From Undibacterium piscinae (lineage in GTDB: Bacteria > Pseudomonadota > Gammaproteobacteria > Burkholderiales > Burkholderiaceae_D), in assembly GCA_003970805.2 (NCBI GenBank), contig CP051152.1, positions 4,092,001 through 4,156,000 on the forward strand: 64,000 nucleotides of DNA. The letters run 5' to 3'. The position numbers were made by a program, and so were the translations under genes. The notes under the pieces are model-generated. The model saw only the letters and a list, made by a program, of their open reading frames with translations, did not search any database and was not told the origin of the DNA. Below are positions 5,576 to 47,558 of the stretch, piece by piece. Each line of letters begins with the position of its first letter. Position 1 is the stretch's first letter.

Positions 5576-5740
5576 TTTTTATTTTTAAATCAGCGCAAAT
5601 GATATTGCGGAAGAGAGAGCCGATTTTCAGAGCAAGCGTACTGCGACTCAATGCATGTCGTTGAGGCGTTTGCTCTTGAAGGGGCGGCTGCGACACTGCG
5701 TCTGGCGAACATCAAACTATAAAAATGAAGCATGATGTAT

Positions 5741-5810
5741 CCGAAATCCGAAATCCGAAATCCGAAATCCGAAATCCGAAATCCGAAATCCGAAATCCGA
5801 AATCCGAAAT
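5741..5810. repeat. Heptanucleotide tandem repeat (CCGAAAT)10
   Basis: Ten perfect head-to-tail copies of CCGAAAT occupy exactly 70 bp; a degraded copy (CTGAAG) follows. The array is 165 bp upstream of the LysR start and 25 bp past the end of the Trp-rich gene. A unit of seven bases is not a multiple of three and the tract is non-coding, so copy-number change could alter promoter spacing but not a reading frame. Confidence 0.95.
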
Positions 5811-5834
5811 CTGAAGCATCTGAAAAAAAGCAGC

Positions 5835-6196: not shown

Positions 6197-6514
6197 ATGA
6201 AATTTTCTTTATTTACAGGTACGGTTTTGGCTGCGTCGGTATTGTTCGCATCAGGTTCTGCTATGGCAAACGCTGATCTTGCAAAAGCAAAGAATTGCAT
6301 GGCATGTCACAATGCAGACACTAAGGTAGTTGGTCCTGCGTACAAAGAGGTTGCAAAAAAATATGCAGGTGATAAAACGGCAGAAGACAAGTTGGTGAAA
6401 AAAGTTCTTAAAGGCGGCAGCGGCGTATGGGGTGCTATCCCTATGCCAGCTAATCCACAAGTGACTGAGGCGGAAGCCCATACTTTGGTTAAATGGATTC
6501 TGGCTTTGAAGTGA
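6197..6514 (+). CDS. Class I cytochrome c (c551/c552-like)
   Basis: Periplasmic monohaem electron carrier of 105 residues. A signal peptide (about residues 1-25, ending SGSAMA) is followed by the haem site CMACH near residue 36 and the distal methionine in AIPMPANPQV. This arrangement fits c551/c552 proteins that donate electrons to terminal oxidases or denitrification enzymes. The ATG at 6197 has TTGGAG as ribosome site and gives a complete signal peptide; the longer frame from 6170 has no such support. A strong terminator follows. Confidence 0.9.
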   Translation: MKFSLFTGTVLAASVLFASGSAMANADLAKAKNCMACHNADTKVVGPAYKEVAKKYAGDKTAEDKLVKKVLKGGSGVWGAIPMPANPQVTEAEAHTLVKWILALK

Positions 6515-6530
6515 TCGCTTTAGTCGCATA

Positions 6531-6559
6531 AAAAAACCCGGATTTTCCCGGGTTTTTTT
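6531..6559 (+). terminator. Terminator of the cytochrome c gene
   Basis: AAAAAACCCGG pairs with CCGGGTTTTTT around a short loop, 17 bp after the cytochrome stop codon. Confidence 0.9.
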
Positions 6560-6586
6560 ATGCCTGAAATAGTCGCGCGTTAAATA

Positions 6587-6623
6587 AAAAAGCGCTGCAA
6601 GCTAAGTTTGCAGCGCTTTTTTT
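6587..6623 (-). terminator. Terminator, probably of the livJ relic
   Basis: AAAAAGCGCTGCAA pairs with TTGCAGCGCTTTTT. It is symmetric enough to work both ways; it lies 29 bp beyond the stop of the minus-strand livJ-type gene. Confidence 0.85.
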
Positions 6624-6651
6624 CAGACTCGGTATTACTTCACGTTCAGTA

Positions 6652-7570
6652 TTACTTCACAACCTGAACCAGTTCACGTTTGCCGGCTTTGTAAGTGTAC
6701 AAAGTCAGTGTACCGTCTTTGATGTCGCCTTTGTCATCAAATGCGATGTCACCGGTAACGCCTTTGTATTTGATTTTCTTCAGCACAGGCAAGTATTTTG
6801 CAGATTCTGCAGAATTAGCTTGTTTCATCGCTTCTACCATCAGCATGACTGAATCGTAGACATACGGTGCATAGATCTGTACTTCTACGCCGAATTTTTT
6901 CTTGTAGGCAGCTTTGAAATCATCCATGCCTTTTTTCTGGGCATCAACAACACCACCAGCTTCAGCGCAGACTACCTGGCCTTCGCCGATACCGTCACCA
7001 GCCAATTTAACCAGATCCGTGGTGCAGATACCATCGCCGCCCATGAACTTGGCTGTAATGCCCAGCGCCTTCATCTGACGCAGCATAGGACCTGCAACTG
7101 CATCCATACCGCCGAAGAAAATGACGTCAGGTTGTTTTGCTTTAATTGTGGTCAGGATAGCGCTGAAATCTGTCGATTTGTCAGTGGTATGCTCTTGCAC
7201 TACGATTTCAGCGCCTTTGCCTTTGGCACCTTTGATAAACTCAGCGGCAACGCCTTCGCCATAAGCAGTTTTTATCATCAATGACAGCAACTTTCTTTGC
7301 TTTATTGATCTGCACTGCGTAACGACCCAATGTACCACCCAATTGACCATCATTAGCCACTATGCGGAATGCACCTTTGTAGCCTTGTTGTGTGTACTTA
7401 GGATTTGTCGCTGAAGGAGAAATTTGTACGATACCAGCATCGTTGTAGATCTTCGATGCAGGAATAGTTGTGCCTGAGTTCAAGTGACCAATTACGCCAT
7501 TGACTTTTGCATCAACCAGTTTTTGCGCTACGGTAGTGCCTTGCTCTTTTCTGCAGGTTTTGTCAGCAAT
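6652..7570 (-). pseudogene. Decayed branched-chain amino acid ABC transporter substrate-binding protein (livJ-type)
   Basis: A periplasmic Leu/Ile/Val-binding protein relic in two frames. The C-terminal part (TAYGEGVAAEFIKGAKGKGAE to KRELVQVVK) is complete. The preceding part (QGTTVAQKLVDAKVNGVIGH to AVQINKAKKVAVIDD) is one frame away; the break is in an A5 run at 7269-7273, where one extra base sits between VIDD and TAYGEG. Upstream of about 7560 no frame gives a signal peptide or the first 60-80 residues expected for the family, so the 5' end appears lost or scrambled. A complete livHMG set lies at 61-64 kb, so this may be a spare binding protein. Confidence 0.75.
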
Positions 7571-7797
7571 AGTTTTGACTGGGGCTTGCCATTCTTTTTT
7601 GGTCGCAGAGTTTTTATCGCGATGCAGGGAGTGGCTACTCCGAACGGCAATGGCCCGTACTGGGCATACTGATGCCTTGATTTTGCTGTTTTTGATTTTT
7701 AAAGCAGTGTAAAAACACGAAATAAATCATGCCCGCCACTGACTTGGAGTGCGGGTTTTTTTATAGCTGATAAACTGATGTTTTTTTCTCTTTGAGA

Positions 7798-8938
7798 ATG
7801 CAGATGGAAGCGACCAAAGTTATTGAGTTTGAACGTCCTCAAATGGATATAGGCAGTAGTTGTACTGCGGCAGCATGGGCGCGGGTGCCCGATGCTCCAA
7901 GCGCTGCGGAGCGGCAGCGCCTGAAGACGCGTATTAAGCAATTGCTGCAAGAAAAGCAGGCGGTGCTGGTGGCGCATTATTATGTTGATGCCGAATTGCA
8001 GGATCTGGCTGAAGAGACTGGTGGTTGCGTTTCGGATTCGTTGGAGATGGCAAGATTTGGCCGTGATCACCCTGCGAAAACACTGATTGTGGCCGGCGTC
8101 AAGTTCATGGGCGAAACTGCCAAGATACTTAGTCCGAAAAAAAACTATCCTGATGCCGGATCTGGATGCGACCTGTTCGCTTGATCTGGGATGTCCGTCT
8201 GATGAGTTTGCTGCATTTTGCGATGCCCACCCGGATCGCACCGTAGTGGTCTATGCCAATACTAGCGCGGCCGTCAAGGCGCGCGCTGACTGGATGGTGA
8301 CTTCCAGTATAGGTTTGGATATCGTGGCGCACCTGCATGCGCAAGGTAAGAAAATTTTGTGGGCGCCCGATAAGCATCTGGGCGGCTATATCCAACAAAA
8401 GACTGGTGCCGATATGTTGTTGTGGCAAGGCTCTTGCCTGGTGCATGATGAGTTCAAAGGGATAGAGTTGGATGTGCTCAAGGCCGAGCATCCGCACGCA
8501 AAAATTCTGGTGCATCCTGAGTCTCCCGCCAACGTGGTAGCGCTGGCCGATATGGTTGGCTCGACTTCGCAAATGATACATGCCGCAGTGACTATGGATG
8601 CGCAGGAGTTTATCGTAGCGACCGATAACGGCATTTTGCATAAGATGCAGATGGCGGCACCCGGTAAACGCTTTATCGTTGCACCTACCGCCGGCAATAG
8701 CGCCACTTGCAAGAGTTGCGCGCATTGCCCGTGGATGGCGATGAATGGCCTGGCAAATCTACTCCATGCGTTGGAAACCGGCAGTGGTGCAATTGAAGTC
8801 GATCCTGTGGTTGGTCAGAAAGCGAAACTTTGCATAGATCGTATGCTCGATTTTGCTGCCGCAAAAAAAGCAAACGTGCGCCCGGGGGGCGATTTGGCGC
8901 AAGAGCAAAAATTGTTTTCCGGAATTGGTCCTGCCTAA
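7798..8938 (+). CDS. nadA: Quinolinate synthase A, frameshifted
   Basis: NadA condenses iminoaspartate with dihydroxyacetone phosphate to quinolinate using a 4Fe-4S cluster. The first part runs to [11 protein letters not shown] and the rest starts at [20 protein letters not shown]; the join is an A8 run at 8137-8144, and removal of one A restores a single frame of about 380 residues. Later motifs include [21 protein letters not shown] and [17 protein letters not shown], which carries cluster cysteines. Ribosome-site and start choice (ATG at 7798 or 7804) are uncertain. A homopolymer error is likelier than true loss because nadB and nadC are intact nearby. Confidence 0.92.
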
Positions 8939-14440: not shown

Positions 14441-14713
14441 GTGAATAAAACTGAATTAATCGATCATATTGCTAAGACAGCCGACATTTCAAAAGCCGCG
14501 TCATCGCGCGCATTGGATGCCTTGATCGGTGCAGTAAAAGCGACTTTGAAGAAGAATGGCACTGTGACACTGGTTGGCTTCGGTACGTTTTCCGTTGGCA
14601 AGCGCGCTGCGAGAATAGGTCGAAATCCGCGTTCCGGCGAAGCAATAAAAATCAAGGCAGCGAAGGTTCCTAAATTTAAACCTGGCAAAGCTTTGAAAGA
14701 TGCTGTAAACTAA
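14441..14713 (+). CDS. hupB: HU-family DNA-binding protein
   Basis: A 90-residue histone-like protein that bends and compacts DNA as a dimer. It begins [20 protein letters not shown] with a GTG start after GAGGGGG. The beta-arm region [25 protein letters not shown] and the ending [13 protein letters not shown] are characteristic of HU rather than IHF subunits, whose arm and N-termini differ. It stands alone with a good promoter and is followed by two tRNA genes. Confidence 0.9.
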
Positions 14714-14763
14714 TGGTCTTCGTGATGCGGTGACAAGCGTCATGCTTATCAGTTTTCGTGATG

Positions 14764-39886: not shown

Positions 39887-41257
39887 TTAGCCAGCCTCGC
39901 CAAGTGTGGTTTGCACGGTGCTGATTCCCAGTTCGGCGCTGTCGATGCCGGTACGCAGGTGTATCACGCTATTGGCCTTGATATCTTTACTCGAACGTAT
40001 CAGTTTGCCCTTATGGTCGCTCAGGATCGCATAGCCACGCTCGAGGGTTCTCTGCGGATTGAGTAACTCCAGTTGTGTCTGTAAATTGTCCAGCGTACGG
40101 CGGTTTTGTTGTAGCTGGCGCTGCGTGGCATCGGTAAGCCGACGCTGGGCAGCTTCAAGATGCAGGCGGGCGGTCGCGCAGTCTGGTCGTCTGGCGGCCA
40201 GACGCGCCTGCCATTGCCCGAGTATTGTCTGCGCCTGTTGTAGCGGCATATGGCTGGCATAGCGCAGGCGTTGTGAGCAATTTTGCAGTTGCAGGCGTTT
40301 GCCGGCAATCGCGGCCAGCGGGCTAAGCAGGCGGCGCGCAGACCAGTCCAGGGTTTGCGCCTGGTTTGTCAGTAGTCTTTGCATGCTGCGTTGCAAAGAG
40401 CTTTGGCTTTGCTTTAACTGCTCCAGCCAGTCGGCACGCGCGCTTGCCGCCAGTTCGGCCGCAGCGGTCGGGGTAGGGGCGCGCATGTCGGCGGCAAAGT
40501 CGGCAATCGTAAAGTCCGTCTCGTGCCCGACCCCGCTGATGACCGGCATGCTGCAATGGGCAATCGTACGCGCCACGATTTCAGCGTTAAACGACCACAG
40601 GTCCTCTATGCTGCCGCCGCCGCGACAAACCAGCAGTACATCACATTCTTCGCGGGCCGAGGCGGTGGCGATAGCTTGCGCGATTTTCTCCGCTGAGCCT
40701 TCACCTTGCACCGGAGTCGGATACAAAATCACTTCTATATGCGGTGCGCGCCGGTGCAAGGTCGTGAGTATGTCGCGTAAGGCCGCCGCCTGTGGGCTGG
40801 TGACTATTCCTATGCGTCGTACGAAGGCGGGAATGGTGCGTTTGTTGGCTGTGTCGAACAGGCCTTCACTGGCTAGCCGCGCCTTGAGTTGTAAAAAAGC
40901 TTCATACAGGTTGCCGACCCCGGCCCGGCGTATCGCTTCCACGTTGATCTGATAATCGCCGCGCGGCGCATACAGGCTCACCAGCGCGCGCACTTCCACC
41001 TTATCGCCTTCGCGCGGGGCAAAATCGGCATATTGGGCACGCCCGCGAAACATCACCGCCTTCACCTGCGCCGCGCTGTCTTTCAGGGTGAAATACCAAT
41101 GTCCCGATGCGGCGCGGGTGAAATTGGAAATCTCTCCGGAAACCCAGGTCAGCGGGATGTTGCGCTCCAGAAGTTGCGCAACCGCTTGGTTGAGCGCGGA
41201 GACTGTGATGACAGAGCCGGTGGCAATTGGGTTAGTCAAACGGGATTGAGGAATCAT
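39887..41257 (-). CDS. xseA: Exodeoxyribonuclease VII large subunit
   Basis: Catalytic subunit of ExoVII, which degrades single-stranded DNA. The 456 residues begin with an OB-fold domain ([20 protein letters not shown], then [20 protein letters not shown]). The nuclease core has [36 protein letters not shown] and [20 protein letters not shown]. The C-terminal half is a long coiled coil. It is divergent from exbB, with the large repeat array between them. Confidence 0.95.
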
Positions 41258-41423
41258 AAGGGCTGTAGGGCTAAAAGCTGTCCACAGAAGCGTGGAATGG
41301 CCGCCAGAATGTCATTAAGCCCGGCTGATGTCAAAAAAAATCTGGATATTTTATGTAAGTGCTTGATTTTTATAGTAGAAGTTATTCTGCCTATCGTTTT
41401 GGCAGGACTATAAATGCCTTATG

Positions 41424-41488
41424 AATCAAGGACTTCGGGGTGCTGAAAGTTACTTATGCACAAACTTATCCACAAAATCTGTGGAAAA
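41424..41488 (+). promoter_or_regulatory. Array unit 1
   Basis: IHF-like site 41424-41436 (one mismatch at the last base), consensus DnaA boxes TTATGCACA (41454) and TTATCCACA (41466), and inverted box TGTGGAAAA (41480). All three nonamers fit TTWTNCACA, the best set in the array. Confidence 0.85.
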
Positions 41489-41562
41489 TCTGAACTTGGG
41501 ATGCGTGGCAATAGCGGTTTGTGCGCTGCCATATTTAGTGGCAGATAGGAAATATTGAGTAA

Positions 41563-41626
41563 AATCAATAGCTTAGTTTTGTTTGTAAGGCTTGCACACA
41601 ATCTTATCCACAAAATATGTGTAGAA
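41563..41626 (+). promoter_or_regulatory. Array unit 2
   Basis: Perfect IHF match AATCAATAGCTTA (41563), nonamers TTGCACACA (41592) and TTATCCACA (41604), inverted TGTGTAGAA (41618). An extra reversed near-box TGTGGATAT lies at 41636. Confidence 0.85.
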
Positions 41627-41732
41627 ATTCCTGTCTGTGGATATGTTACTTGCTGTTATCTTAATTTTTTTATCGGAAAGGGTAAAAAACCTAGGCTGCC
41701 TAAATAGTTTGCATGAGATAAAAAATTATTTA

Positions 41733-41796
41733 AATCAATTACTTAGCCTGATCTAATGGGCTTCTTCACAATGTTATCCACAAAATATGTGTAGAA
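41733..41796 (+). promoter_or_regulatory. Array unit 3
   Basis: Perfect IHF match AATCAATTACTTA (41733), nonamers TTCTTCACA (41762) and TTATCCACA (41774), inverted TGTGTAGAA (41788), and a reversed near-box TGTGGATAT at 41798. Confidence 0.85.
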
Positions 41797-41901
41797 CTGT
41801 GGATATATGCTATTTGGGCTTTAAAACTTTCTTTTAATTATTTAAATCATATAAAACCGCGCTCTTGCCACTTTCTTGAGCAGGACTGTAATTTTCAATG
41901 A

Positions 41902-41965
41902 AATCATGGACTTAGGGATTGCAGCATCGCTTGTACACAATCTTGTCCACAAAATGTGTGCAGAA
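41902..41965 (+). promoter_or_regulatory. Array unit 4
   Basis: IHF-like AATCATGGACTTA (41902, one mismatch), nonamers TTGTACACA (41931) and TTGTCCACA (41943), inverted TGTGCAGAA (41957). A further near-box TCATCCACA is at 42005. Confidence 0.8.
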
Positions 41966-42072
41966 AAAAGAGATACTTGCAAACGGGAGTGCCGATTTTT
42001 ACGCTCATCCACAAATGAGAGTGCGGGGTTTTTAGCTGCCTATTTTGGTGGCACTCTTAAAATAGTCAATTA

Positions 42073-42136
42073 AATCAATCGCTTAGTTAGTAAGCGGGGG
42101 CTTGTGCACAATCTTGTCCACATAATATGTGCAGAA
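42073..42136 (+). promoter_or_regulatory. Array unit 5
   Basis: Perfect IHF match AATCAATCGCTTA (42073), nonamers TTGTGCACA (42102) and TTGTCCACA (42114), inverted TGTGCAGAA (42128). Confidence 0.85.
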
Positions 42137-42408
42137 TGTGTGTCGATGACCAGTCATCCTGCGATGCACTGGTTCGCGCAAGCTCAAAAAGGGTTTTGAT
42201 TTTTTTTTTCACGATTAAACGCATATCGTGGATTTTCTATGCCCCGATGTTTGTTGGTGCTGCTTGATGTTGGTTGGTGTTGTGCAGAAAATGCTTTTTT
42301 ATTCAATTTAGTGAGAAACACTATCTTTGGCCGGCCCTTGGCAAAAAAACGGCGAAGCTAAAAGGCCGCTATTGCCTGATTATTGTGCAGAGGTATTTTA
42401 TTGAATGA

Positions 42409-42472
42409 AATCAATTGCTTAGTGTTTTAGTTAAGGCTTGCACACAATCTTATCCACATTAGCTGTGCAGAA
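42409..42472 (+). promoter_or_regulatory. Array unit 6
   Basis: Perfect IHF match AATCAATTGCTTA (42409), nonamers TTGCACACA (42438) and TTATCCACA (42450), inverted TGTGCAGAA (42464). Confidence 0.85.
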
Positions 42473-42578
42473 AAAAGGCGCGGAAGTATAAAAAATGCTT
42501 TTTTAATAGTTTTTTGAGCCGGGTCAGCTCGTTTCCGGCCTCTGCCTATTTTCTTTGCACTTGATGTTTTATCTTTAA

Positions 42579-42642
42579 AATCAATCGCTTAGTTTTAACT
42601 CCAGCACTTCCTAACAATGTTATCCACAATTAATGTGCGAAA
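42579..42642 (+). promoter_or_regulatory. Array unit 7
   Basis: Perfect IHF match AATCAATCGCTTA (42579), weak nonamer TTCCTAACA (42608), consensus TTATCCACA (42620), degraded inverted TGTGCGAAA (42634), and an extra TTATGCACG at 42651. Confidence 0.82.
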
Positions 42643-42747
42643 CTATGAAGTTATGCACGAAAGCATAAACTTGCCTGGTTTTTAGCCTGGGAAAGAGTCG
42701 GAATGCTGCTGTGCCACATTCTTGAGCAGCCATCTGATAGTGATTAA

Positions 42748-42811
42748 AATCAATGACTTAAGGCATTTTTTTGCGTTTGTACACAATATTGTCCACATAT
42801 TATGTGTAGAA
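42748..42811 (+). promoter_or_regulatory. Array unit 8
   Basis: Perfect IHF match AATCAATGACTTA (42748), nonamers TTGTACACA (42777) and TTGTCCACA (42789), inverted TGTGTAGAA (42803). Confidence 0.85.
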
Positions 42812-42918
42812 CATTGGGTGTTTTTATCTGGTATAGAGGTAGTCGCTATGGCATTGCATTTGGACTATGAGCGGTAGTGCGCTGAGTAATTCTTTGGCAT
42901 GGGGATTACTTCTTTTAG

Positions 42919-42982
42919 AATCAATGACTTACCTTTGTTTTTGTAAGATATCCACAGTTTTTCACACAGAATTTGTGTAAAA
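42919..42982 (+). promoter_or_regulatory. Array unit 9
   Basis: Perfect IHF match AATCAATGACTTA (42919). The nonamers ATATCCACA (42948) and TTTTTCACA (42958) are shifted relative to other units, yet the inverted TGTGTAAAA (42974) keeps its usual 55-bp distance from the IHF site. Confidence 0.8.
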
Positions 42983-43122
42983 CATCCTGATTTGCTGTGT
43001 GCGAGTCGCTGGAAGTAAGGCACCCTAAAATTTCCGGTGATTTCAATCGCAGCCACTTGCTCATAGAGACACACTGCGCTACATTGCGGGGTTAGATTCA
43101 CACCCCTCTTTAGGAGTTTCAT

Positions 43123-43728
43123 TTGTTCGCCATTATTCAAGCTGCTGGTTGGCCTATCTATTTTTTACTCATCGCCTCGATTATTGCGCTGGCATTGATA
43201 CTTGAACGTACTTTGTCTCTGCGACGTGAGCGCATACTGCCGAAAACCTTGCTCGATGAGGTTATTCGCGTCTACCACTCAGGCAAAATCAAGCAGGAAG
43301 TGATAGACCAGCTTGCCGGTAATTCGCCTTTGGGAAAAGTGTTGGCGGCCGGATTGCGCAATGTTGACGCGCCGCGCGAAGTCATGAAGGAATCGATAGA
43401 GGAAGCCGGACGCGGCGTTGCGCATGAGCTGGAGCGTTTCCTGACAACGCTGGGTACGATCGCCTCGCTGGCGCCGTTGATGGGCTTGTTCGGTACGGTG
43501 GTGGGGATGATAGAAATTTTTGGCTCCCAGACTTCTTCTGGCGCCAACCCGGCACAACTGGCGCATGGTATTTCCGTGGCCTTGTACAACACTGGCTTTG
43601 GTTTGCTGATCGCTATGCCAGCCTTGATTTTTTACCGTCATTTCCGCGCACTGGTTGATACCCTGGTGGTCGATATGGAACAACAGGCGGTAAAGTTTGT
43701 CGATACTGTTCACAGCGCGAGAAAATAA
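43123..43728 (+). CDS. exbB: ExbB/TolQ/MotA-family proton channel protein
   Basis: Inner-membrane protein of 201 residues that uses the proton gradient to drive TonB- or Tol-type work. The first helix (YFLLIASIIALALILERTLS) and the two later ones carry the family signature LGTIASLAPLMGLFGTVVGM and NTGFGLLIAMPALIFYRHF. A TTG start after TTTAGGAG is used. It is followed by exbD with 1 bp between stop and start. No tonB is adjacent, as in the conserved Burkholderiales exbB-exbD-lpxK-kdsB-adk cluster. Confidence 0.9.
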   Translation: MFAIIQAAGWPIYFLLIASIIALALILERTLSLRRERILPKTLLDEVIRVYHSGKIKQEVIDQLAGNSPLGKVLAAGLRNVDAPREVMKESIEEAGRGVAHELERFLTTLGTIASLAPLMGLFGTVVGMIEIFGSQTSSGANPAQLAHGISVALYNTGFGLLIAMPALIFYRHFRALVDTLVVDMEQQAVKFVDTVHSARK

Positions 43729-47272: not shown

Positions 47273-47467
47273 CGCCAAAATGTTTGCAAAAAAGATTTTC
47301 AGTTCTTCAATTCCCTGATGTCAGCAGCCGAGCCTGGCTCTATTGCAATAAGTCGCACTAAGTTGCACTAAGGCTCCATCCGTAGGGGCGGCGTAATCAG
47401 ACGGAAGTAAGTTTTCTTGTGTTACATCTTAGGGCATGGGCTGGTAGCGCCAAGTAATTTGTTCTTG

Positions 47468-47558
47468 GGTCGTTGTTATTGTTTGTTGTTATTGAGTTGT
47501 TATTGGGTTGTTATTGGGTTGTTGTTATTGTGTTATTGTTGTTGTATTACTTCGTCGC
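47468..47558 (+). repeat. GT/TA-rich degenerate repeat upstream of hppA
   Basis: Repeated GTTATTG and GTTGTTATTG blocks, about eight in 90 bp, with almost no C on the plus strand. It lies 70-160 bp before the hppA start. The strand asymmetry resembles a slippage-prone or unpaired region; the role is unknown. Confidence 0.75.

Follow-up and report, generated by a model that had tools for sequence, protein, structure and literature searches.

What is the role of a long gap between two genes that holds a tandem series of sites for IHF and DnaA? The gap lies in the window, by which we mean the whole stretch of 64,000 nucleotides of Undibacterium piscinae DNA that was analysed. It is 1865 bp long and low in GC (about 0.38-0.39), reaching from the start of xseA at 41257 to the start of an ExbB/TolQ-family gene at 43123. 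The left flank, xseA (39887..41257, minus strand), codes for the large subunit of exodeoxyribonuclease VII and matches NCBIfam TIGR00237 over the cut-off. The best NCBIfam matches of the right flank (43123..43728, plus strand), a conserved neighbour in relatives that we refer to as exbB, are TolQ and ExbB, all below the cut-off. The original prediction described the gap as a series of units made of an IHF site and a DnaA box, and proposed either an origin separate from dnaA or a DnaA-control locus.

Nine units are present, all in the same orientation as predicted, and they span 41388-42982. On the plus strand, the elements of each unit follow one another in the order TGCN11GCA palindrome, 19 nt, IHF 13-mer, 16-17 nt, DnaA box III, 3 bp, box II, 5 bp and inverted box I. 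The IHF site and the DnaA box had thus been recognized, while the palindrome and the arrangement of three boxes per unit at 9-3-9-5-9, with III and II direct and II and I head to head, had been missed. The palindrome is termed Fis-like because of its G at -7, C at +7 and AT-rich middle. It lies exactly 36 nt ahead of the IHF start in all nine window units and retains six of six defining bases in eight units and five of six in the last one (unit 10). Since every unit has this palindrome before its IHF site, the array starts at 41388, and not at 41424 as first given. The IHF sites agree with the earlier description: they match WATCAANNNNTTR exactly in seven of the nine units and with one mismatch in the other two (units 1 and 4). 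The distance from the IHF site to the core is 16-17 nt, on the box III side, in nine of nine. The central nonamer is TTATNCACA in six units, as stated before; units 4, 5 and 9 carry TTGTCCACA, which lies outside the TTWTNCACA pattern of the original prediction.

The individual units, all on the plus strand, are given here with the positions of the Fis-like palindrome, the IHF site and the III-II-I core in brackets. They are unit 1 at 41388..41488 (41388; 41424, one mismatch; 41454-41488), unit 2 at 41527..41626 (41527; 41563; 41592-41626), unit 3 at 41697..41796 (41697; 41733; 41762-41796), unit 4 at 41866..41965 (41866; 41902, one mismatch; 41931-41965), unit 5 at 42037..42136 (42037; 42073; 42102-42136), unit 7 at 42373..42472 (42373; 42409; 42438-42472), unit 8 at 42543..42642 (42543; 42579; 42608-42642), unit 9 at 42712..42811 (42712; 42748; 42777-42811) and unit 10, the weakest, at 42883..42982 (42883, 5/6; 42919; 42948-42982). 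The steps between central boxes are 138, 170, 169, 171, 336, 170, 169 and 171 nt. The predicted period of about 170 holds for the steps that had been listed; that list omitted the step of 138 and the last one of 171, and 336 is a double step. We searched this double step, between units 5 and 7, for a unit 6 and found box-like fragments and no clear unit.

A strict test of boxes and gaps is passed by eight of the nine plus-strand cores in the window. The exception is unit 10, in which box II is degenerate (TTTCACACA). The same test gives one minus-strand reading at 41774, within unit 3. By chance, any core at all appeared in one of 300 dinucleotide shuffles of the region, and the remaining sampled DNA of this genome, 0.71 Mb, holds two cores, counting both strands. 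In the unit alignment the IHF bases and the DnaA-box bases are invariant, and the spacer is divergent. Mean pairwise identity of the window units is 76% in the core and 26% after it, which indicates that the binding sites are what is kept. The module measures about 100 bp, and spacing is rigid inside units and loose between them. An Rfam scan of 41200-43200 for RNA gave no matches up to E 1. Two short repeats of other kinds occur elsewhere in the window: eleven copies of the 7-mer ATCCGAA at 5739-5815 (98% matches) and a short TTGTTATTG-type tandem repeat at 47459-47549, where a 771-codon ORF begins in its longest reading.

For analysis of relatives, we used the best 80 of 544 loci found with the ExbB query. 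The record titles of these 80 are mostly Undibacterium, Massilia, Duganella, Janthinobacterium and relatives; the four named genera belong to the Oxalobacteraceae. The closest ExbB among them is 93% identical and comes from Undibacterium. The unit finder, a matrix iterated on the gaps themselves with a cut of 16, identified 345 units in 81 gaps (the window and the 80 relatives). As a control, 784 kb of DNA from the opposite strand of the gaps and from downstream of them gave 2 matches. A search of relatives' xseA-exbB gaps had been part of the original prediction, and the pattern is indeed conserved at the same gap, with 3-9 units in 56 of the 81 loci and 1-2 in 17, though none in eight, some of the 81 loci ending at contig ends. 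The unit-free loci are L071, in which the IHF site is kept and the core has an altered gap, L085, in which the core is degenerate, and L094, L106, L114, L115, L117 and L119. Since eight of 81 loci are without units, the locus appears to be dispensable in some lineages. Loci L123-L128 (Rhodocyclaceae, Denitromonas, Oryzomicrobium, Uliginosibacterium) have one core each, and no clear IHF site was found in the aligned L123-L126.

The internal geometry of the unit is also conserved. The gaps of the 80 relatives contain 380 strong plus-strand boxes. An inverted partner accompanies 317 of them, at a gap of 5 in 300, and a direct partner accompanies 305, at a gap of 3 in 294. Among the 344 units that have sufficient flanking sequence, an IHF site of at most one mismatch occurs within 75 nt of 248 (18 of 344 in the shuffled control), and the remaining 96 have two or more mismatches. 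The distance from this site to the core is 16-17 nt in 246 of the 248 cases: 235 of 237 where a locus has several units, and all 11 of the others. A Fis-like palindrome with at least five of six bases is found 34-38 nt before the IHF site in 306 of the 326 units that belong to multi-unit loci and in 10 of 18 others, against a background of 0.9% per position. It fits the E. coli Fis consensus loosely: exact matches to that consensus at -70 to -61 number 52 over 344 units. Past the downstream end of the module, conservation drops to 0.03 bits per position. The median unit spacing across loci is 154 nt and loose. In L181 the repeats are 246 bp long and 90-94% alike in stretches, showing that tandem duplication occurs.

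To place these units among known DnaA-binding loci, we compared them with sites of E. coli. The control set comprised oriC, datA, purH and mioC, with the nrdA and polA double boxes left out. With a matrix trained on the 345 units, DARS2 reaches a score of 25.2 and DARS1 one of 18.3, against 2.6 for datA, -2.8 for oriC and -9.1 for purH. Chance matches of equal score expected per E. coli-size genome, computed as a dynamic-programming tail with even base frequencies, are 0.001 for DARS2 and 0.009 for DARS1. At the 5-bp gap, the match to the box I consensus is 8/9 in DARS1, 7/9 in DARS2, 4/9 in datA, 2/9 in both oriC and purH and 1/9 in mioC. Box III is weak, with a mean of 6.3 of 9. A sequence model built from 40 units of relatives (R2) and searched in 75 kb, to which the following E values refer, gives ungapped alignments with DARS1 over positions 5-37 of 37 (E 1.4e-5) and with the DARS2 core over positions 2-36 (E 0.0039). 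Another stretch of the DARS2 region ranks slightly above that core (E 0.0026). The same search gave a partial match to datA over positions 1-23 only (E 0.0044), a weak partial match to this genome's own origin candidate (E 0.019) and no match to E. coli oriC. The units have a three-box core in which box I faces box II, box III points the same way as box II, and the gaps are those of DARS1 and DARS2; by this anatomy they are probable DARS. The head-to-head I/II pair is described as characteristic of DARS and essential (PMC10380432, in the part available). The order core-IHF-Fis of DARS2 recurs as well, in compact form and with the Fis-like palindrome in the place of the Fis site. Judging from these sequence features, the gap probably carries, nine times in tandem, a compact module of the DARS2 type that would reactivate DnaA. 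The expectation of a DnaA-control locus is in this way supported and sharpened to the DARS2 type, which the original prediction had named.

It might be argued that the array is a DnaA sink instead, in which 27 boxes titrate DnaA or, together with IHF as at datA, promote ATP hydrolysis, so that initiation is repressed. Many strong boxes and IHF sites are indeed gathered at one place, datA too combines IHF and DnaA boxes (PMC4585315, available sections), and recent work backs DnaA titration on the E. coli chromosome (PMC12371093, as far as its available text goes). However, titration needs neither a head-to-head partner at 5 bp, nor IHF at 16-17 nt, nor a Fis-like site at 36 nt, and all of these are kept. 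The head-to-head I/II layout is that of DARS and not of datA, and the matrix separates datA from both DARS. We consider a sink doubtful. Its datA-like form is kept among the rivals; by both matrix and gap, datA is without the units' core arrangement.

A second alternative is transcription control, with DnaA, IHF and Fis acting on xseA or on the operon of exbB. Where a locus has one or two units, the core closest to exbB starts 127-255 bp ahead of it, near promoter distance, and E. coli DnaA also regulates genes via double boxes, as the accessible part of PMC11317965 describes. Yet the window units reach 1.67 kb upstream, and those of L073 and L080 lie farther still. Four loci labelled Herbaspirillum (L106, L114, L115 and L117) keep the gene with zero units. 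Moreover, an array of six units in another genus (L187, 2369-3243), with IHF sites kept and box II degenerate, has neither xseA nor exbB beside it in the 5.5 kb examined. Such regulation is therefore quite improbable as the role of the array.

The possibility of an origin was addressed with GC skew, sampled over the genome in 36 stretches in addition to the window. DnaA boxes, IHF sites and low GC would all suit a second or relocated origin. However, window skew is positive in every 2-kb step, without a sign change. The sampled skew goes over from negative to positive values near 2.687 Mb, which is 1.45 Mb away from the array, and makes the opposite turn near 0.6 Mb. The switch is imperfect, with isolated positive 5-kb steps before it and near-zero or mixed values at 2.76-2.90 Mb. 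It coincides with a low-GC gap in which a repeat occurs three times in tandem, at intervals of about 830 and 775 bp; every copy has several DnaA boxes followed by a DnaA-trio-like ACTACTACTAT run. Three trio strings searched for in the xseA-exbB gap were all absent. Skew and trio strings thus both speak against placing the array with oriC, and it is unlikely to be an origin of replication; an origin separate from dnaA at this place, as originally entertained, finds no backing in these data, and a second or relocated one is hardly credible. A probable oriC lies at the sampled skew switch, in L037 at 6440-8520 (genome about 2686440-2688520). The gene dnaA is at 2.949 Mb, 262 kb from the switch, so the skew minimum is not beside dnaA, a position that would have told against the original prediction.

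The last alternative, a neutral or selfish tandem repeat with chance DnaA-box-like words, draws on the similar 246-bp repeats of L181 and is scarcely tenable given the fall of identity after the core in the window and the conservation of site and place across genera.

Measured along the chromosome as a fraction of the genome, the distance of the array is 0.28 to dnaA and 0.35 to the skew switch. For comparison, E. coli DARS2 is at 0.21 and DARS1 at 0.33 (PMC5010248, available portion). In five other genomes, the distance from the exbB units to dnaA, taken as a stand-in for the origin and expressed as a fraction of the contig bearing both, is 0.15 (G001), 0.27 (G012, one unit), 0.28 (G022), 0.29 (G037) and 0.31 (G014).

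We also asked where else DARS-type cores occur. In the genome itself, model R1, for which 150 of 297 candidates were scored, recovers the nine units and, in the gap between hemE and priA, one partial match; model R2 adds a second core at ppk2-hemE. These two cores, at L014 10042-10076 and 11629-11663, flank hemE. The hemE-priA core has a Fis-like palindrome at 50 nt, and the ppk2-hemE core is accompanied by a perfect IHF site at a distance of 58 nt, as in E. coli DARS2. Both share the core of the array, but each stands singly, about 33 kb from the skew switch. Among the family genomes, own included, model R3 has a match in 40 of 40, some of the matches listed being to the core part alone. Out of 20 regions picked from these matches, 15 are at exbB, 10 of them with at least three units, and the other five are L178, L183, L190 (hemE-priA), L189 and L187. 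This genome set is not independent of the 80 loci, since L174, L175, L186 and L191 overlap L061, L095, L058 and L104.

At the class level (one genome per family, own included), 50 of 58 genomes have a core-model match at E 0.01 or better, partial matches counted, and among the matches listed no run of three units occurs outside the own genome. In two of 29 class loci, L144 and L158, an IHF site lies 17 nt from a core, and the 3 kb examined include neither xseA nor exbB; the compact spacing therefore extends beyond the family. For the 34 cores from 32 other loci, an IHF site is at 58 nt in none, at 56 in one and at 17 in two, one of these two being a perfect site. Spacing of 58 nt is thus not a general rule, as none of the 34 cores elsewhere has it. 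Seven of the 29 class loci, representing seven other families, have a core near priA (L149, L150, L152, L156, L157, L159 and L170), and three family genomes have one between hemE and priA (L178, L183 and L190). A link between DnaA reactivation and the gene of the restart helicase, priA, is possible.

How could a DARS2-type array work? In E. coli, according to the parts available of three reports (PMC4245941, PMC5742627, PMC10380432), DARS binds ADP-DnaA and the head-to-head pair frees ADP, at DARS2 with IHF and Fis. By analogy, ADP-DnaA would bind the unit core; IHF, with Fis, would bend the DNA, so that DnaA molecules on boxes I and II meet head to head and ADP is released; apo-DnaA would then depart and take up ATP. 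Both IHF alpha and beta are encoded, over the cut-off, and so is a Fis homologue of 31% identity, the presumed binder of the palindrome. A short DnaA-like match in the genome is probably Hda. The window itself has an HU/IHF-family gene at 14444-14716, below both IHF cut-offs and probably coding for HU. With nine units, a single chromosomal site would reactivate more DnaA, and the array dose, doubling as the fork passes mid-replichore, would supply ATP-DnaA for the next initiation. Binding, ADP release, the dosage effect and cooperation of units are all presumed here from the E. coli model.

E. coli has two chromosomal DARS described, and the available text of PMC5835720 reports that extra plasmid copies disturb initiation, DARS on higher-copy plasmids being deleterious; that a cell should have nine active copies therefore calls for an explanation. 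Many proteobacteria have DARS-like sequences (PMC10380432, in the part at hand), V. cholerae among them (PMC6090056, likewise). The literature listings that we searched, mostly outside subscription journals, include no tandem DARS array. The array suggests that multiplying such sites lets bacteria tune replication timing. We would give an even chance to a broader proposal: that the group sets this timing by a copy-number-tunable Fis-IHF-DARS array with 3-9 copies at one mid-replichore place, the number being changed by tandem duplication and loss and the units perhaps cooperating as one large ADP-DnaA exchange complex. A native, conserved DARS2-type array of up to nine-fold would suggest that site number can tune the DnaA-ATP cycle. 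It would also offer a natural series of 1-9 copies on which dosage models of initiation control could be tried and, for biochemistry, a module of about 100 bp that resembles DARS2.

Compared with known systems, the units share with E. coli datA the presence of DnaA boxes and an IHF site, the non-coding location and the absence of a rep gene, but datA is without a DARS-type core by both its score and its box I position. DARS1 (bioD-uvrB) has the same core geometry, reflected in its matrix score; it differs in being a single copy and in having no nearby IHF match of at most one mismatch, so the core-IHF spacing is not defining for DARS as such. DARS2, in the mutH upstream region, shares the 9-3-9-5-9 core with I and II head to head, as well as IHF beyond box III, away from oriC; its Fis site beyond IHF has the Fis-like palindrome as its putative counterpart here. 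It differs in being a single copy with other gene neighbours and in having extra boxes IV-VI and two IHF sites, the second 3 bp beyond the first. The available part of PMC4245941 calls Fis and the DARS2 core specific to E. coli-related gamma-proteobacteria, whereas that of PMC5742627 includes beta-proteobacteria. PMC4245941, within the same part, also reports that shifts of 5 or 10 bp between IHF and core lower DARS2 activity. Counted from box III on that side, DARS2 has its IHF sites at 58 and 74 nt and a full Fis consensus at 110 nt, in contrast to the single IHF site at 16-17 nt here; the site order is therefore that of DARS2, but the units are compact. The difference in IHF spacing, 58 minus 16, is 42 nt, which would correspond to about four helical turns.
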